The notes under the pieces are model-generated. The model searched no databases. It was not told the DNA's origin and saw nothing but the letters and a program-made list of their open reading frames with translations. 64,000 nucleotides of DNA from Cryptosporangium aurantiacum (GTDB taxonomy: Bacteria > Actinomycetota > Actinomycetes > Mycobacteriales > Cryptosporangiaceae): positions 62,001-126,000 of the forward strand of contig NZ_FRCS01000001.1 in the NCBI RefSeq assembly GCF_900143005.1, written 5' to 3'. Position 1 is the first letter of the stretch; the number at the start of each line of letters is the position of its first letter. Shown in pieces: positions 26,609 through 58,105 of the stretch. The position numbers and the translations under genes were made by a program.

Positions 26609-29600
26609 TCAGTACACGTCGCGGACGTAACGCTTGTCGGCGGCCAGCTGCTTCACCCAGGCGGCGGCGTCGTCCGCGGACATCCCGCCGTGCGCGGCGA
26701 CCACCTCGCGCAGCGCCAGGTCGACGTCCTTCGCCATCCGGCGGGCGTCACCGCAGACGTAGAAGTGGGCGCCGTCGCGCAGCCAGGCCCAGAGCTGAGC
26801 GCCGCGCTCCCGCATCCGGTCCTGGACGTAGACCTTGGCGCGCTGGTCGCGGGAGAACGCCAGGTCCAGCCTGGTCAGCGTGCCGTCGGCGCGCAGGTCG
26901 CCGAGTTCCTCCCGGTAGTAGTGGTCGGTCGCCTGGCGCGGCGCCCCGAAGAACAACCAGTTGGGGCCGGTGGCGCCGCGGGCGCGGCGGTCGTGCAGGA
27001 ACCCGACGAACGGCGAGATCCCGGTGCCCGGCCCGACCATGATCGCCGGGGTCGCCGCGTCGGCGGGCGGCTTGAACTGCGACGCCCGCTGGACGAACAC
27101 CGACACCGGAGCGTCGGGGTCGGCGTCCGCGAGGTACGTCGAGCAGACGCCCTTGCGCTCCCGTCCGGCCTCGTTGGCGAACCGGACCACGGACACCGTC
27201 GTCCGGATCACCTCCGGGTCGACCAGCGGGCTGGACGAGATCGAGTACAGCCGCGGCTGGAGCTTCGGCAGCGCGTTCACCCACTCCTGCGCGGCCGCGC
27301 CGACCTCAAAAGCACCGATGACGTCGGCGGCCTGGCGTCCCCAGGTCCACTGGGCCAGCTCGCCCTTGTTCTCCGGCCGCAGCAGCTTGCCCAGCTCGCG
27401 GTCGTGCGTCCGGTCGAGCAGGAACCGCAGCAGGCTCGGGCTGATCGCTGCGATCTCCAGGTGGTGCCGCAGCGCGGTGGCGAAGTCGACGTCACTGGTC
27501 CCGGGCAGCGTGACCGGCGTCGCCGGGTCGAGCCCGGTGAGCGTCAGCCACTCGTCGACCAGGTCCGGGCAGTTCACCGGCCAGACGCCGAGCGCGTCGC
27601 CGACCTCGTACTCCAACCCGTCGGCCGCGAACGCGAACTCGCGGACCTCGCGAACCGCGCCCGGCCGGCTCAGCAGCCGGTTGCCCACCAGCCGCGCGGT
27701 CGCCGGCGAGGCCTTCGACGGCCGCGTCACGGTCGTGACCGCGGACGGCGGTGAGAGCGGAACGGACGGTGCCGCGGCGGATTGGGCCGGGGCGGATTGG
27801 GCCGGGGCGGATTGGGTCGCGAGTGCGGCGAGCACGGCTTCCGCCCAGGCCTCCGCCGCCTCGGCGTAGTCCGGCTCGCAGTCGACGCGTCCGACCAGCT
27901 GCTCGGCTCCCAGTTCCGCGAGCCGCTCGTCCAGCCGGCGTCCGTGGCCGCAGAAGTTGTCGTAGCTGGAGTCACCGAACGCCAGCACCGCGTACCGCAG
28001 CCCCTCCAGCCGCGGCGCGTCGTCGGCGACCAGCGCGTCCCAGAACGCCCCGCCGTTGTCCGGCGCCTCACCGTCGCCGTACGTGCTGGTGACGAACAGC
28101 AGATCGGACGCTCGGCGCAGCAGCGTCGGCGAGCAGTCGGCCATCGGGAACACGGTCACCGCGCGGCCGGACTCCGAGAGCCTGCCCGCCACCGACAGCG
28201 CGTACTCCTCCGCGTTGCCGGTCTGCGAGGCCCAGAGCACCATCAGCTCCCGGGTCGCCGCGGGAGCCTCGAGAACCGCCGCCCCGCCGCGCGAGTACGC
28301 CCCGGCCAGCGCCCCGTTGATCCAGAGCGCGTTGTCCGGCGCGAACGGCGCGGTCGGCGGCAGCACTGGCACGGTGTCGCCGGGCGGGGTGGTCCGCAAC
28401 CCGGTGACGAACCCGGCCAGGTAGTGTCGCTCGGCCTCGGACAGGACCGGTGGCGCCACCGCACCCAGCCCGAACACGTCGGTCAGCCCGTCGACGATGC
28501 CCGGCGGCGTCACGTCCACCTGAGTACGAGGAACCGAATCACCCACGGACGCGACCACCGTGAGCGCGACAGCGCACACCTTGAACTCGGGCTGGAACGA
28601 GATCGGGTCGACGGCGTCGTTCGTCACCGCGTTGACGCTCAGGTACTCGCCGAAGACGTCGTTCCAGTGGAACGGCGCGAAACAGCTGCCGGGAAGCACC
28701 CGGTCGGTGACGACGGCGGGCAACACGGCCCGTCCACGCCGGGACGCGACCTCGATCCGGTCGCCCTCACGCACGCCGAGCGCGTCGGCGTCCGACGGGT
28801 GGATCTCGACGAACGGCTCCGGGTTGAGCTTGGTGAGCGCCGTGACCTTGCCGGTCTTGGTGAGCGTGTGCCAGTGGTGCGGGAGCCGCCCGGTGTTGAG
28901 GACGAACGGGTAGTCGTCGTCGGGCAGCTCCGCCGGTGGCAGGTGCGGACGCGGGAAGAACGCGGCCTTCCCGCTGGCGGTGGCGAACGTCAGCTCCGAG
29001 CCGGACCGGTACCGGATCGGGTGGCGGTCGGCGTCGTCGTCCGGCGGGGCCGGCCACTGCACCGGACCGTTCCGCAGCCGCTCGTAGTCGACTCCACGCA
29101 GGTCATAGCCGGTCTGCGGGTTCCAGAACGCGGTCAGCTCGGCGAAGACCTCTTCTGCGGACGTGTACGAGAACGCTTCGCCGAACCCCATCTCGGTCGC
29201 GATCCGGGCGATCAGCTGCCAGTCCGGCAGCGCCTCGCCGGGCGCGTCCACGGCCTGCCGCGACAGCGTCAGGTTGCGCTCGGAGTTGACCATCACACCG
29301 TCCGCCTCGGCCCACATCGCGGCCGGGAGCACGACGTCGGCGTACGCGTTGGTCTCGGTGTCGGCGAACGTGTCCTGGGTGACCACGAACTCCGCGGCCT
29401 CCAGGCCCTCGATCACCGTCCGGCGGTTCGCCACCGACGCGACCGGGTTCGTGCAGATGATCCAGCACGCCTTCACGTCGCCGTCGGCCATCCGGCGGAA
29501 GAGATCAACCGTTCCCGTACCGACGGACGACGGGATCGTGTCGGCCGGGAGGTTCCACTGCTCCTCGACGAACCGGCGGTCGGCCGCGGCGAGCACCGAG

Positions 29601-30685
29601 CGCTGACCGGGTAGGCCAGGGCCCATGTAGCCCATCTCCCGGCCGCCCATCGCGTTCGGCTGGCCGGTCAGCGAGAACGGCCCGGCGCCGGGGCGGCAGA
29701 TCGCGCCGGTGGCCAGGTGCAGGTTGACCAGCGCGTTCGTGTTCCAGGTGCCGTGGGTGCTCTGGTTGAGGCCCATCGTCCAGCAGCTCACCCAGCGGTT
29801 TCCGGCGCTCCGGATCAGCTCGGCGGCCTTCCGCAGGTCTGCTTCCGGAATGCCGGTGATCTCGGCGACCCGGGCCGGCGGGTAGTCCCGCAGCAGCGCG
29901 GGCATCGCGTCCCAGCCCTCGGTGTGCGCGGCGATGAAGTCGGTGTCCAGGCCATCCGACTCAGCCAGCAGGTACATGAGCCCATTCAGTAGCGCGAGGT
30001 CGGTCCCGGGCTTGACCTGCAGGAACAGGTCCGCCTTCGCGGCGGTTGCGGTTCGCCGGGGGTCGACGACGATCAGCTTGGCGCCCTTTTTCACCCGATC
30101 GAGCAGACGCAGGAACAGGATCGGGTGGCAGTCGGCCATGTTCGACCCGATCACCAGGAACGCGTCGGCCTCGTCGAGGTCGGAGTACGAGCCGGGCGGG
30201 CCGTCGGCGCCGAGCGAGAGTTTGTAGCCGCTCGCGGCGCTGGCCATGCAGAGCCGTGAGTTCGACTCGATCTGGTTCGTGCGGAAGTACCCCTTGGCCA
30301 GCTTGGTGGCCAGGTACTGGGCCTCGAGCGACATCTGGCCGGACACGTAGAGCGCGATCGCGTCCGGGCCGTGCTCATCGAGGATGCCCCTCAGCCGCCG
30401 GGCGGTGGTGCGGATCGCCTCGTCGACGCCGGTGGGGGCCAGCGCGGCGGCCCGGTCGTCGCGGGTGAGCGCCGTGGCGAGCCTGCCGTCCGCGGACAGC
30501 ACGTCCGCGCTGGTCGAGCCCTTGGTGCAGAGCCTGCCCCGGTTCGCGGGGTGCTCCTTGTCGCCGGACGCTTTCAGCGCGCGCCGCCGCCCGTCGGCGT
30601 CGCGTCCGATCTCCAGGACGACGCCGCAGCCGACGCCGCAGTACGAGCACACGGTCTTGACGCGGTCGAGGACTTCCGACGCCAC
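26609..30685 (-). CDS. Fused assimilatory nitrate reductase - diflavin reductase
   Basis: 1358 residues. Residues ~1-700 are a molybdopterin-guanine-dinucleotide nitrate reductase (NasC/NarB-like): [4Fe-4S] ligands Cys13, 16, 20 and 53, then the catalytic domain ([22 protein letters not shown]) and the dinucleotide-binding domain ([17 protein letters not shown]). Residues ~815-965 are a flavodoxin domain ([20 protein letters not shown]). A Pro/Ala/Gln/Ser linker leads to an FAD/NADP domain of the CysJ type (~990-1358; [30 protein letters not shown]). It should carry electrons from NADPH through FAD, FMN and Fe-S to nitrate on one chain in the cytoplasm. Such fusions occur in actinomycetes. 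The third codon of the longest frame (GTG, after GGGAGG) is the likely start. No nitrite reductase is in the window. Confidence 0.9.
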
Positions 30686-30700
30686 CAGCACCCCTCCCGG

Positions 30701-30790: not shown

Positions 30791-33487
30791 TCAGGCGCCT
30801 CGTGCGTGAACCAGCGTCTGCCAGACCACGTCGCGGGCCAGCGGGAGCTCGGTGAACCGGACACCGGTCGCATCCCGCACCGCGTTGGCCAGCGCCGGAG
30901 CCACCGGGTTGAACGGGCTCTCGCTCATCGACTTCGCTCCGAGCGGGCCGACCGGATCATGCACGTCTCTCACGAAGTGCACCTCCGTCTTCGGCACGTC
31001 GGCGAACGCCGGCAGGTGATAGGTGCGGAACGTCGGGTTCACCACCGCGCCGTCGGCATCCAGGCGGACCTTCTCGTAGAGCGTCGCGCCGAGCGCCTGG
31101 GCGACGCCGCCCTCGATCTGCCCCCGGCACTGCATCGGGTTCATCACCCGGCCCGCGTCGGCGGCGTGGACGCTGCGCAGGATGCGGATCTCGCCGGTGC
31201 CGGGGTCGACCGCCACCCGGAACCAGTGCGCGTTGAACGCCACCGACCGCGGCGTGCCGTCGAAGTGGCCGTCGGCGGTGAACGGGGCTCCGGCCGCCTC
31301 GACGAGGTCCTTCAACGGAATGCGGGTGGCGCCGGCGAGCACCGCGTCCGCGTCCAGGCGACACGCCGCCACCGGGGTCTCGGCGCGGGCGGCCGCCGCC
31401 GCGAGCAGGCGGTCGCGGAGGACCCTGCTCGCGGCCAGCACCGCGTTACCCGCGACCGTCGTCCCGGTCGAACCGAACGCGCCGGTGTCGTGCCCGACCA
31501 GGTCGGTGTCGGACTGCCGGACCGTCACCCGGTCGGTGGTCGTGCCCAGCGTCTCGGCGACGATCTGCTGATGCACGGTCGTGCTGCCGTTGCCGAACTC
31601 CGCGGTGCCCACCAGCAGCTCGTAGCGGCCGTCCGGCAGCAGCGTGAGCTTCGCGTCGGCGTAGTGGCCGTTCGGGGGAGTGGTCGCGATCATCGCGATC
31701 GCCGAGCCGTCGCCGACGAGCCAGCCGTCGGGGGCTTCCGGTGCCGGATCGCGCCTGGCCTCGTCCAAGATCGCCAGGCACTGGTCGAGGCCGGAACTGG
31801 CGACGCTGATGTCGGCCTCCTGCCCGGCGGGTGTGACCAGCGGTTCACCGACCCGGATGGCGTTCCGGGCCCGGAACGCCACCGGGTCGAGGCCCAGCGT
31901 GCGCGCCAGCTCGTCGATCGCCGACTCGAGCGCGAACAGCACCTGCCCGAGGCCGTAGCCGCGGAAGGCCCCGGACGGCAGCGTGTTCGTGTAGACCGCG
32001 TACCCCTCGACCTTCTTGTTCGCGCAGCGGTAGACGGCCATCGACTCGCCGCAGGCGTGGAACAGCACCCCCGGACCGTGGTTCCCGTAGGCGCCGGTGT
32101 TCGAGACGACCCGCAGGTCGATCGCGGTGAGCGTTCCGTCCTTCTTCGCGCCCAGCCGGACACCGACCGTGAACGGATGCCGGGTGGTGGCCGCCTCGAA
32201 CTGCTCGGAGCGGGTGTACTCGTACTTGACCGGGCGCTTCACCGTGAGCGCGGCCAGCGCCACCAGATCCTCGGCCAGCATCTCCTGCTTGCCGCCGAAC
32301 CCACCGCCCACCCGCCCGGTGACCACCCGCACCTGGTCGAGCGGCAGGTCGAACAGCGCGCACAGCGCCCGCCGGGTCAGGAACGGCACCTGGCTGCTCG
32401 ACCGGACGACGAGCCGGCCCGCGTCGTCGAACCAGGCCATCGAGCCGTGGGTCTCCAGGCTCGCGTGCTGCACCCGCTGGGTGACGAACGTCCCCGCGAA
32501 GACCTCGTCGGCCTCGGCGAGGCCCGCCGCGACGTCACCGATCTCGCCGTGCACCTCGCCTGCGACGTTGCCCTCGGCGCGGGCGATTCCATCGCCGGGC
32601 CCCTTGTCCGGATGCAGGACCGGTGCGCCCGGTTGCAACGCCTCCTCCGCGTCAAAAACCGCAGGTCGGACGTCGTACTCGACGACGATCCGGCGGCAGG
32701 CCTCCTCCGCGGCGCCCTCCGACTCGGCCACCACCGCCGCGACCCGCTGACCGCGGAACCGGACGACGTCGTCGAGGACCCGGGTGTCGAGCGGGTCGTC
32801 CTGCGGGCGCTCGTGCCGACCGGTGGAGAACCGTGCTCTCGGGGCGTCCTCATGGGTGAGTACGGCGTGCACTCCCGGGACGTTCGTCGCGGCGCTGGTG
32901 TCGATGCGGACGATCCGCGCGTGGGCGTGCGGCGACCGGAGCACCTTGAGGTGCAGCAGCCCGGGGACGTCGAGATCGAACGTGTACCGCGCGGCGCCGG
33001 TGACCACCTGCGGACCGGCCGGTGCCGGAGCGTTACCACCGACGGCGGCGTCCTCGGTGTGTTTGACGCCGCACACGGCGTCGGAAATCGCGCGGTAGCC
33101 GGTGCAGCGGCAGAGGTTGCCCTTGAACGCCCGCGGCAGGTCGTCGAGCTGCCGTTCGTCCAGCGCGGCGGTCGTCATCACGAAGCCCGCGGTGCAGAAG
33201 CCGCACTGGAATCCCTGCGCGTCGAGGAAGCGCTGCTGGATTTTGTGCAGGCCGCCCTCGGGGGCCAGGCCCTCGATCGTCGTGACCTCGTGCCCCTGGG
33301 CGCGGACCGCCGGATAGACGCAACTGTGCACCGGCATGCCGTCGACGTGCACGGTGCAGGCGCCGCAGTCACCCGCGTCGCAGCCCTTTTTGACGCCGTA
33401 GTGGCCCAGATCGCGCAGGTGGGTGCGGAGGCACTGGCCGGGCCGGGGCTTCTCGTCGTAGGGCCTGCCGTTGACCGTGACGCTCAT
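30791..33487 (-). CDS. Xanthine dehydrogenase-family protein: fused [2Fe-2S] and molybdopterin subunits
   Basis: 898 residues. Residues 1-~150 are the small iron-sulfur subunit: plant-type [2Fe-2S] with Cys36, 41, 44 and 56, and the second cluster with Cys95, 98, 126 and 128 (QCGFC, CRC). From ~165 on is the molybdenum subunit (VVTGAARYTFDLDVPGLLH, VGGGFGGKQE, FRGYGLGQ, FGSTGTTVAG). A Glu in GAKSMSESPFNP is at the place of the catalytic base. It hydroxylates a purine or similar heterocycle or aldehyde. The FAD subunit gene lies just upstream with a 4-nt ATGA overlap, so the enzyme is a two-chain complex. The substrate is unproven; the PucR region 12 kb away makes a purine plausible. Confidence 0.88.
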   Translation of the reverse strand: MSVTVNGRPYDEKPRPGQCLRTHLRDLGHYGVKKGCDAGDCGACTVHVDGMPVHSCVYPAVRAQGHEVTTIEGLAPEGGLHKIQQRFLDAQGFQCGFCTAGFVMTTAALDERQLDDLPRAFKGNLCRCTGYRAISDAVCGVKHTEDAAVGGNAPAPAGPQVVTGAARYTFDLDVPGLLHLKVLRSPHAHARIVRIDTSAATNVPGVHAVLTHEDAPRARFSTGRHERPQDDPLDTRVLDDVVRFRGQRVAAVVAESEGAAEEACRRIVVEYDVRPAVFDAEEALQPGAPVLHPDKGPGDGIARAEGNVAGEVHGEIGDVAAGLAEADEVFAGTFVTQRVQHASLETHGSMAWFDDAGRLVVRSSSQVPFLTRRALCALFDLPLDQVRVVTGRVGGGFGGKQEMLAEDLVALAALTVKRPVKYEYTRSEQFEAATTRHPFTVGVRLGAKKDGTLTAIDLRVVSNTGAYGNHGPGVLFHACGESMAVYRCANKKVEGYAVYTNTLPSGAFRGYGLGQVLFALESAIDELARTLGLDPVAFRARNAIRVGEPLVTPAGQEADISVASSGLDQCLAILDEARRDPAPEAPDGWLVGDGSAIAMIATTPPNGHYADAKLTLLPDGRYELLVGTAEFGNGSTTVHQQIVAETLGTTTDRVTVRQSDTDLVGHDTGAFGSTGTTVAGNAVLAASRVLRDRLLAAAAARAETPVAACRLDADAVLAGATRIPLKDLVEAAGAPFTADGHFDGTPRSVAFNAHWFRVAVDPGTGEIRILRSVHAADAGRVMNPMQCRGQIEGGVAQALGATLYEKVRLDADGAVVNPTFRTYHLPAFADVPKTEVHFVRDVHDPVGPLGAKSMSESPFNPVAPALANAVRDATGVRFTELPLARDVVWQTLVHARGA

Positions 33488-34296
33488 CGTCCCACCGCCA
33501 GCTCGTCGCGGACCTCGGCCGCGAACCGCTCGGTGAGGTGCCGCCGCCACGCGGGGGCGCCGTGGACGTCGTCCACCCAGACGTCGGCCGGGAGCGCGTC
33601 GATCGCCGCCCGGAGTTCGGCGGTGGTCGGCAGCTGCGCGAACCGGAACTGGATCGGTCGGCAGGTGGACGCGGTGACCGTGAGGACGAGTGTTTCCGTG
33701 CCGGCGTCGATCCGGCCGATCACCAGCGCCGCCGAGCGCCCGAGCGGGTGCAGCGAACCCTGCCGGAACGCTGCCCGTCCGGTCAGCGCGGTCGCCGGGA
33801 GGACGATCGAGCGGAGAAACTCCCCGGGGCGGAGTGCGGTGGTGCCGTCGCCCGTGACGAAATCGGTCACTGCGAGCTGGCGGTGGGTGCCGTCCAGCGA
33901 CTCGAGCGTGCACCGGCCGTCGAGCGCCGCGGTCAGCGACGTCATCGGACCGGCCGGCAACGCCGCACAGAGGTTGCCACCGACCGTGGCGACGTTCTGG
34001 ATCTTGAAGCTCGCGAGGAACGCGTCGGCGCACTGCCGGAACAGCGGGTCGCAGACCGGCCAGGTCGGCGCCGCCAACCTCGCTAGCTCGGCAATAGTGC
34101 AGGTCGCAGCGATCTGCAGGCCGTCGGGCGTCGCGGTCAGCGCGGGCCAGCCGAGCGTCGTGAGGTCCCGCAGGCGGTGCAGGTGCGGCTGCGGCTCGGA
34201 GAACAGGTACGTGCCTCCGGCCAGCCAGCCGTCACCGGCACGCCAGACACCGGCGTCGGCGGCGCCGGTGATCTCGTCGATCGTGTTCAGGTCCAC
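33484..34296 (-). CDS. Xanthine dehydrogenase-family FAD-binding subunit
   Basis: 270 residues of the CoxM/XdhB type, passing electrons from the Fe-S clusters to NAD+ or another acceptor. FAD contacts are seen in WLAGGTYLFSEPQPH, near the N-terminus, and in IQNVATVGGNLCAALPAGPM. A C-terminal CO-dehydrogenase-flavoprotein-like domain follows. The GTG start has AGG about 8 nt upstream. Its stop overlaps the start of the fused Fe-S/Mo subunit gene (ATGA). It is somewhat shorter than many XdhB proteins (about 290). Confidence 0.87.
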   Translation of the reverse strand: MDLNTIDEITGAADAGVWRAGDGWLAGGTYLFSEPQPHLHRLRDLTTLGWPALTATPDGLQIAATCTIAELARLAAPTWPVCDPLFRQCADAFLASFKIQNVATVGGNLCAALPAGPMTSLTAALDGRCTLESLDGTHRQLAVTDFVTGDGTTALRPGEFLRSIVLPATALTGRAAFRQGSLHPLGRSAALVIGRIDAGTETLVLTVTASTCRPIQFRFAQLPTTAELRAAIDALPADVWVDDVHGAPAWRRHLTERFAAEVRDELAVGR

Positions 34297-38330: not shown

Positions 38331-38660
38331 CTACTCAGAATGTTCGGCCGCGGACGGTGTCGCCGGGATGACCCGCACTTCGGTCAGCTGGGTGAGGCCG
38401 CACACCGTCAGCAGGTACTCGTTGAGCGGTGCGATCAGGACCTCGATCCGGTCCGCGTGGGTGAACAGCGCGGCGAGCGCGGCACTGTCCAGGTACTCGA
38501 CCCCGGTCAGGTCGACGATGAGCCGCGGACCGGGGTGCACGGCGGCGGCGAGCTGGTCCCGGAACATGGCGGCGTTGCTGAGGTCGATCTCCCCGGTGGC
38601 CGTCAACTGCCACCTGCCGTCCGCGGACTGACCGGTGGCGATGTGGAGCGGGGTACTCAT
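38331..38660 (-). CDS. STAS-domain anti-sigma factor antagonist
   Basis: 109 residues of the SpoIIAA/RsbV type. The conserved core is GEIDLSNAAMFRDQL and VDLTGVEYLDSAALAALF, with Ser59 as the residue normally phosphorylated by the anti-sigma kinase. It overlaps the giant kinase/phosphatase gene by ATGA. That upstream protein carries both a PP2C phosphatase and an RsbW-like kinase domain, so this STAS protein is its evident substrate. The switch would release a sigma factor or another target; none is encoded here. Confidence 0.9.
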   Translation of the reverse strand: MSTPLHIATGQSADGRWQLTATGEIDLSNAAMFRDQLAAAVHPGPRLIVDLTGVEYLDSAALAALFTHADRIEVLIAPLNEYLLTVCGLTQLTEVRVIPATPSAAEHSE

Positions 38661-41600
38661 GGCGTGATCCTCGTGACCATCTCGACGACGGTGCCGGTGG
38701 CACCGGTGTGCAGGGTAACTTCGCCCATCAGCGACCGGATGAGGTGGAGGCCGTGACCGCGGTGCGGATCCGGCGGGGTCTGCTCGTCGCGCCAGGTCCC
38801 CGCGTCGGTGACCGTGACGTCCAGCTGCTGCCCCCCGGCCCTGGCCACGAGTCGCACCAGTCCGGAGGCATCGCGGTAGCCGTGCTCGATGGCGTTCGCG
38901 CAGGCCTCACCGGCCGCGACGAGGACGCTCTGCGTGGTCGCCTGCCCCACTCCTGCGCGGGCGAGCCACCGCCGGAGAGCGGCCCGCACCCGCACGAGCT
39001 CACCGGCGTCGGCGTCGAAGCAGAGGTCGAGCGGAGCCGGATGCCCGTAGAGGAGCAGCGCGACGTCGTCGGAGCCGCCGTCGACCGCCGCCATCCGGCT
39101 CAGGAGCTGCTCGGCGAGGTCCTCGACCGGGAGCGTGCGGTGGTTCCGCAGCGTGTCGGCGGCGCGCCCGATCCCGAGGTCGATCGATCGCCCACGACGT
39201 TCGACGAGCCCGTCGGTGTAGAGCAGCGTGACCGCGCGGGCGGGGAGCATCGTGACGGCCTCGGTCCGGGGAAGCCTGCGACGCACGCCCAGCGGCGTTC
39301 CGCGGCCGCCGTCGAGCAGCTCGGTCCGGCCGTCCGGGTGGGCGAGGATGCCGGGCGGGTGGCCGGCGCTGCTGTAGACCAGCCGGCCGCTTTCGGCGTC
39401 GAGAATGCCGCAGAACGCGGTCGTGCACGACGCTCCGGGCAGCAGCGCAGCGAACCGGTCCAGCGAGGTGAGAACCTCGGCGGGGCCGCTCGCCTGCAGG
39501 AGCAGCGCGCGGCCGGCGCTGCGGAGCTGCCCCATCACGGTCGCGGCGACCAGACCGCGGCCGACGCAGTCGCCGACCATGATCCCGATCCGGCCGTCCG
39601 GTAGCTCGACCGCGTCGTACCAGTCACCGCCGACCTCCAGCGGCCGCCCCGCGGGTTGGTAACGCACGGCGAACCCGTCCGGGAGGACGGCCGGCCCGAG
39701 GATCGATCGCTGCAGGGCGACGGCGACGTCCCGCTGCTGGTCGAACGCGTACGCGCGGTGCAGCGCCTGGGAGAGCGAGCCGCACAGCAACAGCAGCAGC
39801 GTCTGGTCCTCGGTGCCGAAGCCCCGCGCCGGGTTGAGCACCAGCCAGAGCGCGACCGGACCGGACGTGGAGTCGATCGTCGCCCCGACGCCGGTCGGCC
39901 GTCCCTCGGTGGCGTCGATCCGGATCCTCGAAGCTCCCGGGCCGCGCAGGTCGTCCAGCGCCGCGGGCGGCCGGTCGCCGCCAGGGACGGCGGCGGTGAC
40001 CGTGTCGCTGCGGGCGAACGCCGCGGTCGCCTGCCACTGCCGACGCAATTGTTCGACGCCTGCCTGCAGCACCTCCGGCACGGTCCGGGCCACCGCGAGC
40101 CGTTCGTTCATCGCATTGAGGGCGGCGTCGCGTTGCGCTGCGTACCGTTCGGCGGTGACGTCCCGGATCGTGCCGACGACCATCCGGGCACCCCGGTCGT
40201 CGTTCACCGAGCTGATCGACACCGCAGCCCAGAGCCGGTGGCCCTTCCGGTGCTGCAGCGGGACGATCAGGTCGCCGTACGGGCCGTCGAGCACCCGCCG
40301 GTAGGCCTCGAGCACCTGCCCGTGCGCGGCCGGGTCGTCCTGCGGATCCGGCCACCACGGCTGGGGCGCGGGATACGGCAGGTCCTCCGCCGGGTATCCG
40401 AGTATCTCGCTGAACGCCGAGTTGACCTCGACGACCGAACCGTCGGCGTCGGCGACGAAGAAGCCCTCCTGCAGGGAGTCGATCAGCGCGGTCCGCCACT
40501 GGGCGTGGTGGTTGCGGAGCCGGGCCAGGTCGACGTTCGCGCGGACGCGAGCCAGCAACTCCTGCGCGGCGAACGGCTTGACCAGGTAGTCGTCAGCCCC
40601 GGCGGACAGGCCCTCGACCGCGGCCTCCTGACCGGCGCGGGCCGACAGCAGCACGATCGGGATGCCCGCCGTGCGCGGGTCGGCTCGCAGGGCGGTGACC
40701 AGCTCCAATCCGTCCAGGCTCGGCATCATGACGTCGCTGACGATCAGGTCCGGGGGTTCGCTGCGGGCCGACGCCAGCGCGGCGACGCCGTCGGCGACCG
40801 TCGTCACCGCGTACCGGCTGCTCAGCAGGCGCTCCAGGTAGTCGCGCATGTCGGCGTTGTCGTCGGCGACCAGGACCCGGCCTCGCGGCACGTCGGAGCC
40901 GGCGGGCGACGGGACGACCGGCGTCGGTTCCGCGGTGCTGTTTGTGGCGCTGTCCGTGGTGCCGTCCGAACCCTCCGGGAGCCACCGCAACGCCTCCTGG
41001 ACGAACGGCTCGGCCGCGTCCGTCGGAGCGTCGGCGCCGGTCGTCGGGGTGAGATGCTCGGCGGGCAGGTGCGCGGAACCGAACGGCAGGCGGATCGTGA
41101 ACGTCGTACCGACGCCCGGATCGCTCTCCGCGCCGATGGTGCCGCCGTGCAGCGCGACCAGCTCCTGCACCAGCGCGAGGCCGATGCCGCTGCCCTCGTT
41201 CGACCGTGAGCGAGTCGTCGGGATGCGGTGGAACCGCTCGAACAGCCGCGGCATCTCCGCCGCGGGCACCCCGATCCCGCTGTCAGCGACCCGGACGACG
41301 GCGCCGGCTTCACCCTGAGCGACCGACACCCGGATCGCGCCGTCGAACGTGAACTTGAGCGCGTTGCTCAGCAGATTGAGGACGATCTTCTCCCACATGC
41401 CACGGTCGAGATACACCGGCTGGTCGAGGCGCGGGCAGTCGACGTCGAACGTCAGGCCGGCGCGTTCGACGGCGGCGCGGAACACGCTGGCGAGCTCCGC
41501 GGTGAACAGCGCCAGGTCGATCGGCTCGTAGCGGGCCTGCATCCGGCCCGCTTCGATCCGGGAGAAGTCGAGCAGCGTGTTCACGAGCTTGGTCAGCCGC

Positions 41601-42970
41601 AGGCCGTTGCGGTGGATCATCTCCACGTCGTCGCGGGACCGCTGGTCGTCGGCGGGCAGGCGGTCGCGCAGCTCCTGCAGCGGGCCCGTGATCAGCGTCA
41701 GCGGGGTACGAAACTCGTGGCTGACGTTGGAGAAGAAGGCGGTCTTCGCCCGGTCGAGCTCGGCGAGCTCTTCGGCGCGCCGCTGCTGCGCCTGGTAGCT
41801 GCGGGCGCTCGCGATGCCCGACGCCACGTGCGTCGCGGTCAGCTCGATGAACCCGCGGTACCCCTCGTCGTAGGGCCGGTAGCGGTTCAGGGCCGCGACG
41901 AGGAACCCGTGCGGTGCGGCACCCTGGCGGATGAGCGGCACGAGCAGGGCGTGGGTGGGTGGCTCCGGCCAATCGCCGCTCGGCGTTTCGGCGTCGAGCG
42001 GCACCAGCAGCGTTTCCTGCCGGGCCAGTGCCGCCGTCGGCCACACATGGTTTGCGCCGTCGGCCGCGAGTGTCCTCGGGGCCATCGGGTGGCCGGACGG
42101 GATCCCGGACGCGGCGGCCAGCTCGGCGTGGGCATCGTCGGTGAACAGATAAACGAGCGTGAACGGCAGGTCCCGGAGGTTGCGGGCGAGCTGCCTGCTG
42201 GAGAACGCGAGCGTCTCCTGCACGGTCCGGACGACGCTCGGATCGGAGCCGAGGTCTCGCAGCGTCGCCATCCGCCGCTCGCCGATGACCCGCTCGGTGT
42301 CCTCGCTGACGACGCACAGCATGCCGACCAGCGCACCGGCGTCGTCGCGCAGCGGGCTATAAGAGAACGTGTGGTAGGACTCCTCGGGGAAGCCGGAGCG
42401 CTCCACGAACAGCAGGAGCGCCTCGTCCCAGGTGGCCTTTCCGGTGGTCAGAACGGTGTCGATCCGGGGACCGATGTCGTTCCAGATCTCCGCCCACACC
42501 TCGCTGGCCGGGCGGCCGAGCGCCCACGGGTACTTCCGGCCCAGCGTGTCCCGGCGGTAGGCCGCGTTGCAGAAGAACGTCAGCTCGGGGCCCCAGGCCA
42601 TCCACATCGGGAAGCGGGACGAGAGCAGGATGCTCACCGCGGTGCGGAGGCTCTGCGGCCATCCGGTGGGCGGTCCGAGCGGCGTGGCCGACCAATCGAC
42701 GTCGGCGAGATCGGCGCCGATCTCGTCATCAGCGGCAAACACGTCGGGGGTGCTGGCGCCATGTTCCGGGCCGTCGCGTTCCGGGCCGTCGCGTTCCGGG
42801 CCGTCGGGGGTGTCGCCGTCTGGGGTGTGGCTGTCCGGGGTGGTGTCGTCCGGGGTGGTGTCGTCCGGGGTGGTGTCGTCCGGGGTGTCGCCGTCGGGTT
42901 CGGGGTCGTCGGATCTAGCCCCGGGGTCGTCGGGCCCGGCCGCCGATGGGGATGCTCGGTTGCTGCTCAT
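38657..42970 (-). CDS. Multi-domain signalling hub: histidine kinase, receiver, PP2C phosphatase and anti-sigma kinase
   Basis: About 1437 residues. In order: an acidic Thr/Pro/Asp repeat tail (~15-75), PAS (~80-230), GAF (~245-395), HisKA with His418 (FFSNVSHEFRTPL), HATPase (~520-635; NLLSNALKF, DSGIG), receiver with Asp746 (SDVMMPSLDG, ADDYLVKPF), PAS (~825-950), GAF (~955-1085), PP2C/SpoIIE phosphatase (~1100-1295; GGDWYDA, GDCVGRG, YTDGLVERRG, GGSDDVALL) and an RsbW-type HATPase (~1310-1437; AAGEACANAIEHGY, GHGLHLIR). One chain joins a phosphorelay to a partner-switch output, and the coupled STAS gene supplies the substrate. There is no transmembrane helix. The start is uncertain: ATG with GAGGA close by, or a GTG 22 codons upstream. 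Confidence 0.9.
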   Translation of the reverse strand: MSSNRASPSAAGPDDPGARSDDPEPDGDTPDDTTPDDTTPDDTTPDSHTPDGDTPDGPERDGPERDGPEHGASTPDVFAADDEIGADLADVDWSATPLGPPTGWPQSLRTAVSILLSSRFPMWMAWGPELTFFCNAAYRRDTLGRKYPWALGRPASEVWAEIWNDIGPRIDTVLTTGKATWDEALLLFVERSGFPEESYHTFSYSPLRDDAGALVGMLCVVSEDTERVIGERRMATLRDLGSDPSVVRTVQETLAFSSRQLARNLRDLPFTLVYLFTDDAHAELAAASGIPSGHPMAPRTLAADGANHVWPTAALARQETLLVPLDAETPSGDWPEPPTHALLVPLIRQGAAPHGFLVAALNRYRPYDEGYRGFIELTATHVASGIASARSYQAQQRRAEELAELDRAKTAFFSNVSHEFRTPLTLITGPLQELRDRLPADDQRSRDDVEMIHRNGLRLTKLVNTLLDFSRIEAGRMQARYEPIDLALFTAELASVFRAAVERAGLTFDVDCPRLDQPVYLDRGMWEKIVLNLLSNALKFTFDGAIRVSVAQGEAGAVVRVADSGIGVPAAEMPRLFERFHRIPTTRSRSNEGSGIGLALVQELVALHGGTIGAESDPGVGTTFTIRLPFGSAHLPAEHLTPTTGADAPTDAAEPFVQEALRWLPEGSDGTTDSATNSTAEPTPVVPSPAGSDVPRGRVLVADDNADMRDYLERLLSSRYAVTTVADGVAALASARSEPPDLIVSDVMMPSLDGLELVTALRADPRTAGIPIVLLSARAGQEAAVEGLSAGADDYLVKPFAAQELLARVRANVDLARLRNHHAQWRTALIDSLQEGFFVADADGSVVEVNSAFSEILGYPAEDLPYPAPQPWWPDPQDDPAAHGQVLEAYRRVLDGPYGDLIVPLQHRKGHRLWAAVSISSVNDDRGARMVVGTIRDVTAERYAAQRDAALNAMNERLAVARTVPEVLQAGVEQLRRQWQATAAFARSDTVTAAVPGGDRPPAALDDLRGPGASRIRIDATEGRPTGVGATIDSTSGPVALWLVLNPARGFGTEDQTLLLLLCGSLSQALHRAYAFDQQRDVAVALQRSILGPAVLPDGFAVRYQPAGRPLEVGGDWYDAVELPDGRIGIMVGDCVGRGLVAATVMGQLRSAGRALLLQASGPAEVLTSLDRFAALLPGASCTTAFCGILDAESGRLVYSSAGHPPGILAHPDGRTELLDGGRGTPLGVRRRLPRTEAVTMLPARAVTLLYTDGLVERRGRSIDLGIGRAADTLRNHRTLPVEDLAEQLLSRMAAVDGGSDDVALLLYGHPAPLDLCFDADAGELVRVRAALRRWLARAGVGQATTQSVLVAAGEACANAIEHGYRDASGLVRLVARAGGQQLDVTVTDAGTWRDEQTPPDPHRGHGLHLIRSLMGEVTLHTGATGTVVEMVTRITP
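42831..42890 (-). repeat. 15-bp tandem repeat in the kinase N-terminus
   Basis: A 15-bp unit (GGGGTGGTGTCGTCC on the plus strand) occurs three times in a row, with degenerate copies beside it, encoding Asp-Thr/Asp-Thr-Pro-Asp repeats. A second short repeat encodes Gly-Pro-Glu-Arg-Asp. It is a likely hypervariable, disordered tail. Confidence 0.75.
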
Positions 42971-43161
42971 CGTCCTCGCATCCCTCTCCGCCGCAGGGTG
43001 ACTCGATCGACGAAACAGCCGACGAATGAGCTTCACGCTACCGCGCGGGGGATGCTCCGGTGTGTCCTCGAACGACGCGGCGCCGAACGGCGCGTCGGCG
43101 CTGCTCGCGCGGTGTCCACATCCGTTAGCCGGGGACCGATCTGGGTGCCGCCGCTAAGCAA

Positions 43162-43199: not shown

Positions 43200-43257
43200 C
43201 CGCCTGGGCGGCCGGGCATCGTCGACGCGCCAAACGGCGCGGATTCGTTGTAATGAG

Positions 43258-43329
43258 TGCCCCCGGCAGGATTCGAACCTGCGCCCCCGCCTCCGGAGGG
43301 CGGTGCTCTATCCCCTGAGCTACGGGGGC
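43258..43329 (-). tRNA. tRNA-Arg (anticodon CCG)
   Basis: 72 nt. Acceptor stem GCCCCCG pairs with CGGGGGC, the D arm is GCTC-AGGGGATA-GAGC, and the anticodon stem CCGCC/GGCGG encloses loop CTCCGGA with CCG. The T arm GCAGG/CCTGC encloses TTCGAAT. The discriminator is A, and the 3' CCA is not encoded. It reads CGG codons, common in this genome. Confidence 0.97.
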
Positions 43330-43471: not shown

Positions 43472-45400
43472 TCAGTCGGCGACGGTGGTGCCGTTACTGC
43501 ACGGGGCGCCGGTCTCGATCGACGCCGTGATCCGGTACTCCTCCAGGAACTTGTCGATCCGCTCGTCGTCCGCGTCGTTGACCTTGAGCTGGTAGCCCCA
43601 GGCCTGCAACGAGATCGGGCTTTCGAGGCCTGGGTACGGACTCAGGAACGTGTAATCCTTGCCGGTGACCCGGGCCTTCAGGGAGTCGACTTGGTCGGGC
43701 GTGAGGTCGGGGCGATAGGTGATCCAGACCGCGCCGTGCTCGAGGCTGTGGACGGCGTGCCCGTCGTCGATCTTCGTCGCGTAGACATCGCCCTGGCAGT
43801 TCTGCCAGACCGCGTCGTGGTCGCCACCCACCGGCGGCTTCACGGCGTAATTGGAGTCGCCGGCGACGTGCTGCGTGGTGAGAATCTCCGGCTGGGTGGT
43901 GCGATAGTCGACGACGCCCTCGATCGCGACGCTGCTGGTTCCGCCGTCGGAGCCGTCGCGCACGATGTAGATGCCGGCGGTCACGCCGCCGCCGCAGAGC
44001 AGAATCAGGACCACCACGCCGACGACCAGACCGGCGATGAGCTGGCCCTTGCCGCCCGACTTCCCACCCGGCGCGCCCGGTAGGGGGCCGCCCGACGCTC
44101 CGGGCGGCACGAAACCGGGCGGTGGCGGGAACCCACCTGCCGCACCGGGAGGGGGGACAAACCCGGTGGGCGGCGGGAATCCGCCGTGCACGGGCGCCGG
44201 CGACGCAAAGCCGCCCTGCCCCGGTGCGGCGGCGTATCCGCCCTGGCCAGGTGCGGCCGGGAAGCCGGGCTGACCGGGCGCAGCGGGGTATCCGTGCTGA
44301 CCGGGCGCGCCCGGGGCGCCGGTTTGTGGGGGTGTAGCAGGGTAGCTGGGTTGGCCGGGTGCGCCCGGGGCGCCGGTTTGTGGGGGTGCGGCCGGGTAGC
44401 TGGGTTGGCCGGGTGCGCCCGGGGCGCCGGCTTGTGGTGGTGCGGCCGGGTAGCCGGGCTGGCCGGGCGCGCCCGGGGCGCCGGGCTGGCCGGGCGCGGT
44501 GGGGTAGTTGGGTTGGCCGGGCGTGGCCGGGATACCGGGCTGGCCGGGCGCGGTGGGGTAGTTGGGTTGGCCGGGCGTGGCCGAGGGGCCGGTTTGTGGG
44601 GGTGCAGCGGGATAGCTGGGTTGGCCGGGGCCGGCGGGCTGCCCCGGCGCGCCGGGATAGCCGGGCGCGGCGTGGTAGCCGGGAGCCGCGTGGACGCCGG
44701 TCGGTGCCCCGCTGGCGTAGTACGGGGAGGGAGAACCGGGCGGCGGAGGCCAAGCCGCGCCAGTGGCAGGAACTGCGACGGGGCCGGTGACGTGGCCGGA
44801 CGAAGGCGGGAACGGGCCGGCGGGAGGGAAGCTCGCCGCCGGTTCGGCGGGATCGCTCGATGCCAGGTGAGCAGGCGGAGGTGGCAGGACCGACGGCTCT
44901 GCCGTAGCCGGCGGTGCGGAAGTGTCGCTCGCGGCGCCCTCGCTAGCCTGCGCCGCCACCGTGGACGGCGGTACCTCAGCTGACGGCGCGCCCTCGGACG
45001 GGGACGTCCCCTCGGTCGGCGTTGCCCCACCGGACGGCGCTGCCCCCTCGGGCGGTGCTGCGCCCTCGGGCGGTGCTGCGCCCTCGGGCGGTGCTGCGCC
45101 CTCGGGCGGTGCTGCGCCCTCGGGCGGTGCTGCGCCCTCGGGCGGTGCTGCGCCCTCGGGCGGTGCTGCGCCCTCGGGCGGTGCTGCGCCCTCGGGCGGT
45201 GCTGCGCCCTCGGGCGGTGCTGCGGCCTCGGGCGGTGGTGCCTGTTCGGGCGGTGATGCCTCGTTGGGCGTTAGTGCCTCGGCGGGCGGGGACGGCGGGC
45301 TGGGCGGGGGTGCGTCGGTCGGCGGCGAGCCGTCCGGGGAGGTTCGCTGGGGCGGCACGGCCCCGTGCGGTGGTAACTCGCCGGGCGACGTCCAGCTCAT
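43472..45400 (-). CDS. DUF3105 membrane-anchored protein with long repeat-rich N-terminus
   Basis: 642 residues. The first ~450 are low complexity: a block of about eleven Pro-Pro-Glu-Gly-Ala-Ala hexapeptides, then collagen-like Gly-Gln-Pro-x-x-Pro-Ala repeats. One membrane helix (~453-480, LIAGLVVGVVVLILLCGGG) precedes an exterior DUF3105 domain (~490-642). The domain has PPVGGDHDAVWQNCQGDVY, HAVHSLEHGAVWITYRPDL and a C-terminal APCSNG. Four His and two Cys of these stretches also occur in the paralogue two genes away. The repeat region is inside the cell if the helix runs in-to-out. Function unknown; conserved His residues suggest metal binding. It overlaps the DUF305 gene by ATGA, with GGAGAGA before the ATG. 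Confidence 0.87.
   Translation of the reverse strand: MSWTSPGELPPHGAVPPQRTSPDGSPPTDAPPPSPPSPPAEALTPNEASPPEQAPPPEAAAPPEGAAPPEGAAPPEGAAPPEGAAPPEGAAPPEGAAPPEGAAPPEGAAPPEGAAPPEGAAPSGGATPTEGTSPSEGAPSAEVPPSTVAAQASEGAASDTSAPPATAEPSVLPPPPAHLASSDPAEPAASFPPAGPFPPSSGHVTGPVAVPATGAAWPPPPGSPSPYYASGAPTGVHAAPGYHAAPGYPGAPGQPAGPGQPSYPAAPPQTGPSATPGQPNYPTAPGQPGIPATPGQPNYPTAPGQPGAPGAPGQPGYPAAPPQAGAPGAPGQPSYPAAPPQTGAPGAPGQPSYPATPPQTGAPGAPGQHGYPAAPGQPGFPAAPGQGGYAAAPGQGGFASPAPVHGGFPPPTGFVPPPGAAGGFPPPPGFVPPGASGGPLPGAPGGKSGGKGQLIAGLVVGVVVLILLCGGGVTAGIYIVRDGSDGGTSSVAIEGVVDYRTTQPEILTTQHVAGDSNYAVKPPVGGDHDAVWQNCQGDVYATKIDDGHAVHSLEHGAVWITYRPDLTPDQVDSLKARVTGKDYTFLSPYPGLESPISLQAWGYQLKVNDADDERIDKFLEEYRITASIETGAPCSNGTTVAD
45042..45239. 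repeat. 18-bp minisatellite, about 11 copies
   Basis: GCGCCCTCGGGCGGTGCT repeats without interruption nine times identically (45060-45221), with a one-base variant copy before and a degenerate copy after. It encodes Pro-Pro-Glu-Gly-Ala-Ala on the minus strand. Near-perfect DNA identity indicates recent expansion by slippage, and the number may vary between strains. Confidence 0.95.
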
Positions 45401-46515
45401 TTCTCTCCGCTCAACCGGTTCTTCTGCTGTTGCAGCGCGTCGATCTCCGACTGCTGCGACGTTTTTATCTGACGGGCCAGGTACAGCACCTGGTCATCCT
45501 CCGCCTGTTTCAGCGCGGAGTCGGCCATGTGGATCCCGCCCAGATGGTGCTGGATCATCAGGTCGATGAACAGCTGGTCCCTGACCGTGCCGGTGGACGT
45601 GCGCAGCTTCTCCAGCTGAGCATCGCTGGCCATGCCGGGCATCCGTCCGTCGACGATCAGCGCTCGCCCCCCGTCCGGCATCCACGCCATCGCGGGGTCC
45701 GTGCTGGTCGGGTTGAGGTCCCAGTTGCGCAGCCAGCCGATCATCAGGCCGATCTGCGCCTGCTGGGTCAGCGTGATGTCGATCGCGATCTGCCGCAGCG
45801 CCGCGTCGTCGGTGACGCGGTACTCCAGCGACGCCATCGTGACGGCTTGGGCGTGGTGGGTCATCATGTCGCGCGTGAATCCGGCGTCCGCGGAGTCGTC
45901 GGCGGGCCGGTGCGGGCTACCGACCCAGAATCCGATGCCGAACCCGACGGCCAGCACCAGGATCGCGGCCATCACCGCACGGTAGATGCGCGTGCGACGC
46001 CCGGCCCGGACCCGCGCGCTTCCGGCGACTGCGGCGTCCTCGCCGTAATCGTCCCCACCGTCATCGGCCTCGAAGGAGGTGATCCCAAAGGAGCCGGCCT
46101 CGCCGACCCGGGCGCCATCGGACCTGCCGCGCCCGGCGCTGCTGGCCCTCGCGGGCCCGGCGCCATCGGACCCGCCGCGCCCGGCGCCATCGGACCCGCC
46201 GCGCCCGGCGCTGCCGGCCCTCGCGCGGCCGGCTCTACCGGCCCCGCTGTGCCTGCCGCCCCCGGCCCCGGTGCCGCCAAGCTCGGCGCTGTCAACGCCC
46301 GCGCCGCCGAGCTCGGGGCCGCCGGACCCGCTGTCGGCGGCCTCGGGGCCGCTGACGTCCGCGGCGGCTCGCGGGTCAGCGTCCCCATCGTCGTTAATCG
46401 TGAGCTCGGCCGACGACTCGTCGGCGGCGTCGTCACCGACGCCGGCCGACCTGTCCTCCGCGTCGAGCTCGTCGAGCCGACGCCGTGCGCCGGCGAACCC
46501 CCGTCCGTGCGCCAC
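45397..46515 (-). CDS. DUF305 membrane-anchored protein
   Basis: 372 residues. A Gly/Ala/Ser/Arg-rich disordered region (~30-150) precedes one membrane helix (~177-200, VMAAILVLAVGFGIGFWVG) and an exterior four-helix DUF305 domain. The domain has two histidine pairs, FTRDMMTHHAQAV (~215-227) and LFIDLMIQHHLGGIHMA (~315-331), with Met-rich surroundings. DUF305/CopM proteins bind copper at such His/Met sites, so copper or another metal is the best guess. The GTG start has GGGGAA 5 nt upstream. It sits between two DUF3105 genes and overlaps the downstream one by 4 nt, so the three products likely act together at the membrane surface. Confidence 0.88.
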   Translation of the reverse strand: MAHGRGFAGARRRLDELDAEDRSAGVGDDAADESSAELTINDDGDADPRAAADVSGPEAADSGSGGPELGGAGVDSAELGGTGAGGGRHSGAGRAGRARAGSAGRGGSDGAGRGGSDGAGPARASSAGRGRSDGARVGEAGSFGITSFEADDGGDDYGEDAAVAGSARVRAGRRTRIYRAVMAAILVLAVGFGIGFWVGSPHRPADDSADAGFTRDMMTHHAQAVTMASLEYRVTDDAALRQIAIDITLTQQAQIGLMIGWLRNWDLNPTSTDPAMAWMPDGGRALIVDGRMPGMASDAQLEKLRTSTGTVRDQLFIDLMIQHHLGGIHMADSALKQAEDDQVLYLARQIKTSQQSEIDALQQQKNRLSGEK

Positions 46516-54488: not shown

Positions 54489-54803
54489 TTGCTGCGAGTG
54501 GACGTGGGCGTCTACGCTGCTAGGCAGCACAGCCGCCCTCGGGCGCGCGATCACGCCGGGCCGAGTGTCTTCTGAGCGCTCCCGCCGGCAACTCCAGCCG
54601 ATGCAGCGGGGGCGGTACCTGACCGCAACCGGCGCTGAGGTCGAGCCAGAGAGCGCTCCACCCCGGCACCCTCATGAGGTCAGGCGCGGTTGTCCCCGAG
54701 CCATCCGTCTCCGACGGGTGGTCAAGACCGGTCGTCAGACCGGTGCTCCATACCCGGCCGTGCGGCTAATTCAGCCGTCGCCCGTCGCAGGGAAGGACCC
54801 CCA
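54489..54803 (+). promoter_or_regulatory. Probable rho promoter and long leader
   Basis: TTGCTG (54489-54494), an 18-nt spacer and TACGCT (54513-54518) predict a start near 54525, giving a leader of about 280 nt before the rho TTG. Inside it, ACCGGT occurs twice within 20 bp near 54730. Long untranslated leaders are usual for autoregulated rho genes. The whole 409-bp thrB-rho gap holds no gene I can support. Confidence 0.45.
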
Positions 54804-56939: not shown

Positions 56940-56950
56940 CCCTCGTTCTC

Positions 56951-56986
56951 CGAAACGGCCGGCCCCTCCGGGGTCCGGCCGTTTCG
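56951..56986 (+). terminator. Intrinsic-type terminator after rho
   Basis: A perfect 12-bp stem (CGAAACGGCCGG / CCGGCCGTTTCG) with further CCCC/GGGG pairing inside, 11 nt after the rho stop, followed by CGTTTCTC. It is a strong hairpin at the end of the rho gene. Confidence 0.8.
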
Positions 56987-57020
56987 CGTTTCTCATGCAC
57001 GTTTTGGGTAGTCTGCGGGC

Positions 57021-57785: not shown

Positions 57786-57808
57786 TCGGCGGCGGGCAGG
57801 AGTGAACG

Positions 57809-57964
57809 ATGGCGGATCGCGACACGCAGTGTGATTGTGGTCACGCGGAGTGTGCTCATCGCCACTACCGACGGGGCACCGACTGCGCGCTCTGCGACTG
57901 CCCCCGCTACCGCCCGCGCGGCGGCCTCTGGACCCGGTTGCGCGCTCGGTTTCCCAAGCGCTGA
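57809..57964 (+). CDS. Small Cys/His-rich protein (putative zinc binder)
   Basis: 51 residues, too short for many gene finders. AGGAG lies 9 nt before the ATG. Six cysteines and three histidines sit within 24 residues: Cys8, Cys10, His12, Cys15, His17, His19, then Cys26, Cys29, Cys31, followed by a basic, Arg-rich tail (RPRGGLWTRLRARFPKR). The order CxC-x-H...CxxCxC suggests one or two zinc sites; the tail could bind nucleic acid or ribosome. Similar short proteins seem to recur in actinomycetes, but no function is known to me. It follows the GH16 gene by 23 bp and precedes rpmE. Confidence 0.72.
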   Translation: MADRDTQCDCGHAECAHRHYRRGTDCALCDCPRYRPRGGLWTRLRARFPKR

Positions 57965-58105
57965 GCCGCGCCGGGAATGGGCGCGCGGGCCGGGCGCGTT
58001 GGGAGATACGGCAATCCGTCTGACACACTGGACCTCATCGGTACCGGTTCACGCTGCTCTCCGTCTGGGGGCCGGCGACCCGGCGACCACGAGAGAAGAG
58101 GAACC

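Follow-up and report, generated by a model that had tools for sequence, protein, structure and literature searches.

A hybrid histidine kinase joined to a PP2C phosphatase and an RsbW-type kinase, with an overlapping STAS gene, in Cryptosporangium aurantiacum

The window analysed here is a stretch of 64,000 nucleotides from Cryptosporangium aurantiacum (NCBI RefSeq assembly GCF_900143005.1, contig NZ_FRCS01000001.1, positions 62,001 to 126,000), and two reverse-strand genes lie at positions 38331–42970 within it: a sensor gene, whose product carries a histidine kinase, a receiver (REC), a PP2C phosphatase and an RsbW-type serine kinase in the order PAS-GAF-HisKA-HATPase-REC-PAS-GAF-PP2C-RsbW kinase, and a short gene for a STAS-domain protein that starts within the sensor's last codons. 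This architecture, the intact motifs, the close pairing of the genes and the predicted fold can be read at the locus itself; the pair is well supported as anatomy, and the mechanism built on it below is a proposal. Domain positions are numbered from a GTG at 43036, which opens the longer frame of the sensor gene (38657–43036, reverse strand, 1459 residues in the open-reading-frame translation); subtracting 22 gives the numbering from the ATG at 42970. The features of the pair, all on the reverse strand, are as follows (E, expectation value).

38657–42970 (−): hybrid histidine kinase/PP2C phosphatase/RsbW-type kinase gene, 1437 residues from the ATG at 42970 (open reading frame, Pfam)
42746–42970 (−): N-terminal low-complexity tail, residues 23–97, with in-frame 15-bp repeats (DDTTP, DGPER)
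42272–42739 (−): first PAS domain, residues 100–255 (PAS_4; AlphaFold2 model and fold search)
41813–42226 (−): first GAF domain, residues 271–408 (Pfam GAF_2; structural matches to GAF domains)
41546–41749 (−): HisKA, residues 430–497 (Pfam)
41081–41392 (−): HATPase_c catalytic domain, residues 549–652 (Pfam; N, G1 and G2 boxes)
40541–40876 (−): receiver domain (Response_reg), residues 721–832 (Pfam)
40145–40480 (−): second PAS domain, residues 853–964 (Pfam PAS_4)
39692–40114 (−): probable second GAF domain, residues ~975–1115 (AlphaFold2 secondary structure)
39050–39601 (−): PP2C/SpoIIE phosphatase core, residues 1146–1329 (Pfam SpoIIE PF07228, E 4e-41)
38675–39019 (−): RsbW/SpoIIAB-type serine kinase domain, residues 1340–1454 (Pfam HATPase_c_2; N box GEACANAIEHG intact)
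38657–38660 (−): ATGA overlap of 4 nt between sensor stop and STAS start (sequence)
38331–38660 (−): STAS-domain anti-anti-sigma protein, 109 residues (Pfam STAS_2 and STAS)

The initial annotation, made from the sequence alone, had described one chain of about 1440 residues bearing a complete histidine kinase, a receiver, the phosphatase and the RsbW-type kinase. This description holds: the open reading frame gives 1437 residues from the ATG, the Pfam families succeed one another along the whole protein as GAF, HisKA, HATPase_c, receiver, PAS, SpoIIE-type PP2C and HATPase_c_2, the catalytic residues are conserved among relatives, and the numbering used for H418 (in SHEFRTP), D746 (in SDVMMP) and Ser59 of the STAS protein (in YLDSA) is correct. 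The ATG at 42970 is preferred to the GTG at 43036 as the probable start because a ribosome-binding-site-like, purine-rich GGAGAGGG and GAGG lie just upstream of it and because residues are conserved only from about residue 97 onward in ten aligned relatives, from which the low-complexity tail is absent. A tRNA-Arg (CCG) gene lies immediately upstream of the sensor gene (43257–43329, reverse strand). Chance frames are improbable: third-position G+C is 0.92 in the sensor core and 0.91 in the STAS gene, and 53 of the 80 loci scanned have the sensor's HisKA, HATPase, receiver and PP2C in a single frame with conserved catalytic residues. None of the NCBIfam matches listed (25 of 164) reached its cut-off.

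The two-component core has the composition of a hybrid histidine kinase: a HisKA domain with the phospho-acceptor His440 (H418 from the ATG; codon 41717–41719), a HATPase_c domain with its boxes, and a receiver with the phospho-acceptor Asp768 (D746; codon 40733–40735), Ser/Thr and Lys, all on one chain. No HPt domain appeared in the chain even at E 10, and a separate HPt protein was not searched for; the word phosphorelay, applied to the protein in the initial annotation, therefore overstates the case, one His-Asp step being what stands. In front of this core, the AlphaFold2 model of the N-terminal part (predicted local distance difference test score, pLDDT, 90) returned PAS-GAF bidomains in a fold search; the best structural match of the first GAF domain was 4g3v (Z 14.6, root-mean-square deviation (rmsd) 2.7, 149 residues aligned). 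The first PAS domain, scanned alone, lies just above the PAS_4 cut-off (23.9 against 23.1 bits), PAS_4 gives two stretches in the whole-protein Pfam scan, and the family was matched at the first PAS in 35 of 36 aligned members, the window protein included (E 0.01), and at the second in all 32 aligned. Both PAS domains and the first GAF domain of the earlier description are thus sustained and the second GAF domain is only probable; as the weakest domain call, it rests mainly on predicted secondary structure, with a GAF-like order of elements in the AlphaFold2 prediction, a GAF family matched at that position in only 1 of 32 aligned members (Pfam), and a second GAF_2 stretch in the protein that appears only at E up to 10, its place not given.

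A 39-residue helix predicted by AlphaFold2 (residues 1075–1113) runs from the second GAF position into the PP2C domain and is in line with control through a coiled-coil linker; by analogy, helical or coiled-coil linkers have been argued to carry sensor signals to the PP2C dimers of RsbU-type phosphatases (PMC12143880; this and the other papers cited are drawn on for the passages available). The phosphatase fold matches those of Rv1364c, SiaA and SpoIIE (SpoIIE 5ucg: Z 22.0, rmsd 2.9, 212 residues aligned). Five conserved PP2C aspartates, at 1138 (just before the Pfam core), 1156, 1275, 1323 and 1324, are presumably the metal ligands. With intact N, G1 and G2 boxes, the C-terminal domain is, by its sequence, an RsbW/SpoIIAB-type serine kinase, and the N-box Glu and Asn and the G1 and G2 box residues are taken here to have their usual catalytic roles; its model superimposes on Bacillus subtilis RsbW (6m37) with Z 18.8 and rmsd 1.4 over 113 residues. 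The nearest solved sequence to the sensor protein is the PP2C-RsbW part of Rv1364c (3ke6; residues 1112–1457, E 1e-43), for which the fold comparison (Z 26.4, rmsd 9.3, 332 residues aligned) is filled by PP2C and RsbW and carries no information on the second GAF domain.

Relatives were sought with the receiver-PAS junction as query, which favours receiver-bearing proteins, and at most 11 candidates were scored per genome in the class and phylum surveys, so that the counts are lower bounds. Junction matches numbered at least 60 in at least 50 of 393 genomes of the class, and the full histidine kinase-receiver-PP2C chain was found in at least 37 of the 393 (42 loci in total by tally); the uniqueness implied by the initial annotation is thereby withdrawn. 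A phylum-level scan was positive in at least 22 of 396 genomes, all from the same class and many overlapping with the class survey. The 80 loci scanned were made up of 9 (the window among them) plus 51 survey loci, 12 further relatives and eight named loci (L044–L050 and L064), which came from at least 80 pattern matches, one of the two patterns being a generic receiver motif; the other 72 loci of that named scan had no PP2C match below 1e-10 and were left out. Full-length members with names belong to Actinacidiphila, Streptomyces, Actinokineospora, Paractinoplanes and a metagenome-assembled genome of the Mycobacteriaceae. Also set apart were L159, with no PP2C in frame, and L160, which appears truncated and has STAS in the same frame; the frame of L050, the Mycobacterium genavense orthologue, is broken at several points, although a STAS gene still follows it, and neither the full-length counts nor the tree include this locus.

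All nine domains, and a STAS gene overlapping by one base, are also present in plasmid copies from Rhodococcus ruber and Streptomyces fungicidicus. The R. ruber plasmid is typed as conjugative (L181 and L182 are plasmid loci) and has the pair near an ANTAR protein and an HSP20 gene; on the S. fungicidicus plasmid the pair lies near a DNA starvation protection gene. Three annotated plasmid copies that were inspected are named only 'SpoIIE family protein phosphatase', a name that hides the histidine kinase half. A one-off fusion produced by assembly was considered and rejected, the same chain being present in 53 of the 80 loci, in several families and on two annotated plasmids.

Residue conservation across the family is strict. 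The phospho-His, the phospho-Asp, the receiver Ser and Lys, the histidine kinase box residues checked and the five PP2C aspartates are kept in all 53 proteins, one acidic receiver residue is Glu in four of them, and the seven N, G1 and G2 box residues of the RsbW domain are kept in 48 of 48. The short protein L033 is nested among full-length ones in the PP2C tree, which suggests that parts have been gained and lost in the family.

The STAS gene is tied closely to the sensor. Its product has a predicted phospho-site, Ser59 in YLDSA (codon 38484–38486), and its nearest solved relatives are RsfB and other antagonists (E ~0.001); at 41.7 bits it misses the NCBIfam ant_ant_sig cut-off of 53.45 bits. 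The RsbW domain is in frame (at least 80 bits) in 48 of the 53 histidine kinase-receiver-PP2C proteins, and an overlapping STAS gene follows in 46 of these 48, by 4 bases at 21 loci and by 1 base at 25, with the phospho-site Ser and the Asp before it present in all 46. L125, with RsbW in frame, has a 14-codon STAS-like start that ends in a stop codon. There is no STAS behind the remaining five of the 53 (L034, L156, L049, L064 and L158), all of which keep the histidine kinase, receiver and PP2C residues: L034 and L156 lack both RsbW domain and STAS, and L049, whose RsbW domain is degenerate, falls within a group of full-length relatives in the PP2C tree. Between the end of L034 and that of its contig lie 356 bases, in which an overlapping STAS gene would have shown at least partly. 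The association of STAS with an in-frame RsbW domain, 46 of 48 against none of five, has a Fisher p of 7e-6, a value that ignores kinship. Chance adjacency was rejected, given the 46 overlaps in 48 loci against only 27 PF01740 matches in the 9.58-Mb genome.

The placing of the STAS gene next door is borne out by the ATGA overlap, and the pairing points to the STAS protein as the probable substrate. That kinase and phosphatase for one STAS protein are tethered likewise finds support in these counts, in the invariant Ser, in the retained catalytic residues and in the adjoining domains of 3ke6, and kinase, phosphatase and STAS look like one unit. A 1698-codon frame (L038, G031:C61) holds PP2C, RsbW and STAS on one chain in the order of Rv1364c, which supports STAS as the partner of such kinase domains. 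Outside the full-length group the STAS pairing is close and not universal: among 25 shorter relatives without a complete histidine kinase-receiver part, a STAS lies at most 300 bases downstream on the same strand in 16 and in the same frame in two. A 915-codon PP2C-RsbW relative without the histidine kinase and receiver (L037, G000:C1:35357-36814) has an overlapping STAS gene of its own; it lies on the same contig as the fused gene, ~64 kb away, and is found in three other genomes of the genus.

The reading favoured here, and held to be probable with some reserve, is a cytosolic, single-chain partner switch, gated by two-component signalling, that acts on S59 of the co-translated STAS protein. 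Input at the first PAS-GAF pair would set autophosphorylation of H418, and the phosphoryl group would pass from H418 to D746 within the protein, in cis or in trans inside a dimer. The state of the receiver, together with the second PAS-GAF pair, would then act through helical linkers on the PP2C domain and alter the relative activities of the phosphatase and of the C-terminal RsbW-type kinase, each of which would work on S59. Unphosphorylated STAS protein would bind an anti-sigma factor, most likely one of the separate RsbW-like proteins whose genes stand beside SigB/SigF-type sigma genes elsewhere in the genome, and this capture would free the sigma factor for a stress response. Each catalytic event in this scheme is inferred, and so are the STAS substrate, the sign of the receiver's effect, the target and signal, and the solubility of the sensor. 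RsfR is less active as a phosphatase when its receiver is phosphorylated and RsbY more active (PMC10950880), and because of these opposite signs the direction of receiver control in the sensor protein cannot be inferred.

The receiver might instead act on its own histidine kinase only, as a restraint or phosphate sink, leaving the second PAS-GAF pair to govern PP2C and RsbW independently of phosphorylation. The Bacillus cereus hybrid kinase RsbK has such an inhibitory receiver (PMC4574943), and relatives that are without histidine kinase and receiver keep PAS-GAF-PP2C-RsbW with a STAS nearby (for example L036, L167, L168, L171 and L172). Against this, the receiver is followed by a PP2C output in 53 proteins and does not end the chain, and proteins that have lost the RsbW domain still retain their histidine kinase and receiver residues; this arrangement is judged distinctly improbable.

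The initial annotation had also called for a search for the sigma factor or other target of the STAS protein. No sigma factor was found in the 64-kb window, and a profile of four sigma proteins from the window genome, which recovered both control loci, located a SigB/SigF-like gene near only two of the 53 relatives, L132 and L158, within the stretches retrieved around them. L132 (G100:C35) is a full-length locus with an overlapping STAS gene, and the SigB/SigF-like gene there, ~3 kb downstream on the opposite strand, is a lead to the target. At L158/L183, taken as the same place on Mycobacterium gordonae plasmid p1, an annotated SigB/SigF/SigG family sigma gene lies ~1 kb upstream. Clustering of neighbouring genes is poor evidence on the target: the largest among 14 of 130 clusters covered 21 of the 53 loci and consisted mostly of reverse-strand frames over the gene's own start.

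In the window genome itself, four of the 12 sigma loci with a Sigma70_r3 match were read (C1 at 870.8 kb, C32 at 31 kb, C5 at 43 kb and C3 at 187 kb), 'SigB/SigF-type' being an assignment made in the present analysis. Three RsbW-like proteins beside sigma genes carry Glu, Ala or Met in place of the N-box Asn, which the fused RsbW domain keeps. The one at C1 is closest to UsfX (8ih8, E 1e-11), which has Arg at this position. In Mycobacterium smegmatis, RsbW1 is an anti-sigma factor without kinase activity and RsbW2 is a kinase (PMC7693655), a division of labour that, by analogy, the window genome fits. The C5 sigma pair, with no PF01740 match on its contig (PF13466 was not searched), is a weak candidate target.

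The same data bear on a switch closed upon the chain itself, in which the C-terminal RsbW domain would be the anti-sigma factor and dephosphorylated STAS protein would displace the sigma factor from it. CrsR and HsbR offer the model: each chain combines a receiver and a PP2C domain with a kinase/anti-sigma domain, and this third domain binds RpoS (PMC6482189); the fused domain resembles SpoIIAB in the SpoIIAB-SigmaF complex (1l0o; Z 17.9, rmsd 2.7, 128 residues aligned), and the sigma genes by L132 and L158 fit as well. The window and the retrieved stretches of 51 of the 53 relatives hold no sigma gene, and the three RsbW-like proteins that lack the kinase Asn and stand beside sigma genes could themselves be the anti-sigma factors, so that the closed switch is regarded as unlikely. 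The STAS protein might also bind some effector other than an anti-sigma factor, as phosphorylated HsbA binds the diguanylate cyclase HsbD (PMC6482189), and the rarity with which a sigma gene travels with the pair (two of 53 loci) would suit such a target; its nearest characterised STAS relatives are, on a weak match (E 0.001), anti-sigma factor antagonists (RsfB, 8ih8), and this alternative is considered decidedly unlikely.

Several observations weigh against the favoured single-chain switch on a separate anti-sigma factor. The mechanism is drawn from sequence and models, domain placing in the C-terminal model is uncertain (predicted template modelling score, pTM, 0.58), and the receiver could, as described above, restrain its own histidine kinase. 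The C5 RsbW-like match falls below the Pfam cut-off, and STAS genes lie within 4 kb of the sigma/anti-sigma loci C1 and C32, which may therefore not need the sensor-linked one. Behind L030, whose kinase domain is full, lies other sequence and no STAS; L064 has a divergent HATPase and no STAS; L158 also lacks a STAS, and its RsbW match (112 bits) is in a different frame that overlaps the end of the chain; and no STAS lies within 300 bases downstream in seven of the 25 shorter relatives. With L064 set aside and L158 counted as domain-bearing, the association becomes 46 of 49 against none of three (L034, L156 and L049), for which the hypergeometric p, worked by hand and likewise ignoring kinship, is ~9e-4; joint loss of kinase and STAS thus appears weaker than on the first count. 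The relatives are not independent, and one 3′ deletion could remove kinase domain and STAS together; L049, however, keeps a decayed kinase domain and is nested among full-length relatives.

A broader proposition, put forward tentatively and held with rather less confidence than the mechanism itself, is that the whole sensory half of the actinobacterial general stress switch is here one molecule, whose own histidine kinase-receiver event would set its phosphatase/kinase ratio and so pass a His-Asp signal on as a Ser switch in the STAS protein co-translated with it. If so, the tethered switch would respond to the ratio between two activities of a single molecule and be insensitive to the amount of that molecule. 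The locus would also give a concrete route for actinobacterial hybrid histidine kinases with unclear output, the receiver feeding a phosphatase/kinase pair on its own chain and not an HPt. Natural variants without the STAS kinase and STAS, or without histidine kinase and receiver, provide comparisons for the joining of two-component and partner-switch signalling.

Elsewhere in the window, the gene at 26612–30691 (reverse strand) encodes a fused protein of 1360 residues in which Pfam places a molybdopterin oxidoreductase and a flavodoxin/FAD/NAD reductase on one chain; judged by these domains, it may be an assimilatory nitrate reductase that carries its own flavoprotein electron donor. A 1080-residue chain at 30794–34033 (reverse strand) has 2Fe-2S and molybdopterin domains of the xanthine dehydrogenase kind, and its ~180 N-terminal residues match no Pfam family at E 0.001. 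A DUF3105 protein behind a long low-complexity tail, with 18-base and 54-base tandem repeats, is encoded at 43475–45400 (reverse strand), followed by a DUF305 gene at 45400–46515. The 1085-codon open frame at 54774–58028 (reverse strand) has no Pfam match at E 0.001 and may be an antisense frame.

The full fusion appears little studied and its parts are known: no paper was recognised as describing the full chain in a search that was thin on subscription journals, and older Streptomyces work may hold it. One possible member, a lead by published description alone, is SCO7327 (OsaD) of Streptomyces coelicolor. It is listed as an orphan hybrid histidine kinase, without a transmembrane helix, whose receiver can be phosphorylated and whose cascade is unclear (PMC9739842), and it is thought to sense osmotic stress (PMC9739823); S. 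coelicolor is said to be in principle without an HPt protein (PMC9739842, PMC9739823). SCO7325, an RsbV homologue that activates SigB (PMC8346170), is two numbers away from SCO7327. Four loci of the family (L028, L045, L137 and L138) have a second STAS gene, of another subgroup, ~370–470 bases downstream in the same orientation, an arrangement that would fit a SCO7325-like activator next to the pair. If SCO7327 belongs to the family, some of this biology has already been published. For OsaC (SCO5747), which is presumed to carry an RsbW domain, the passages available name no histidine kinase or receiver.

Among characterised systems, Rv1364c of Mycobacterium tuberculosis shares with the sensor protein a sensor domain, a PP2C domain and an RsbW-type kinase on one chain, and a STAS partner; it differs in having an N-terminal PAS domain and a C-terminally fused STAS domain (PMC12143880, PMC7693655), whereas the sensor protein has histidine kinase, receiver, PAS and GAF domains in front, and both the window and the 46 STAS-bearing relatives encode STAS in an overlapping gene of its own. 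HsbR/HsbA of Pseudomonas aeruginosa and CrsR/CrsA of Shewanella oneidensis share a receiver-PP2C-kinase/anti-sigma chain and a separate STAS-type antagonist, and HsbR differs in receiving its phosphate from separate hybrid kinases via HptB (PMC6482189); in the sensor protein, HisKA and HATPase_c precede the receiver (Pfam), so that the chain contains its own histidine kinase; no HPt was found in it, and PAS-GAF stands between receiver and PP2C. The RsfS-RsfR-RsbW2-RsfB system of M. smegmatis and the RsbK-RsbY-RsbV system of B. cereus share the order of events from histidine kinase to receiver-PP2C, STAS, anti-sigma factor and SigF or SigB (PMC10950880, PMC7693655); there these are separate proteins, whereas the sensor protein unites histidine kinase, receiver-phosphatase and STAS kinase in a single polypeptide. 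Kinase and phosphatase on one chain are thus already known from Rv1364c and from HsbR and CrsR (PMC6482189), and the added histidine kinase is what differs.

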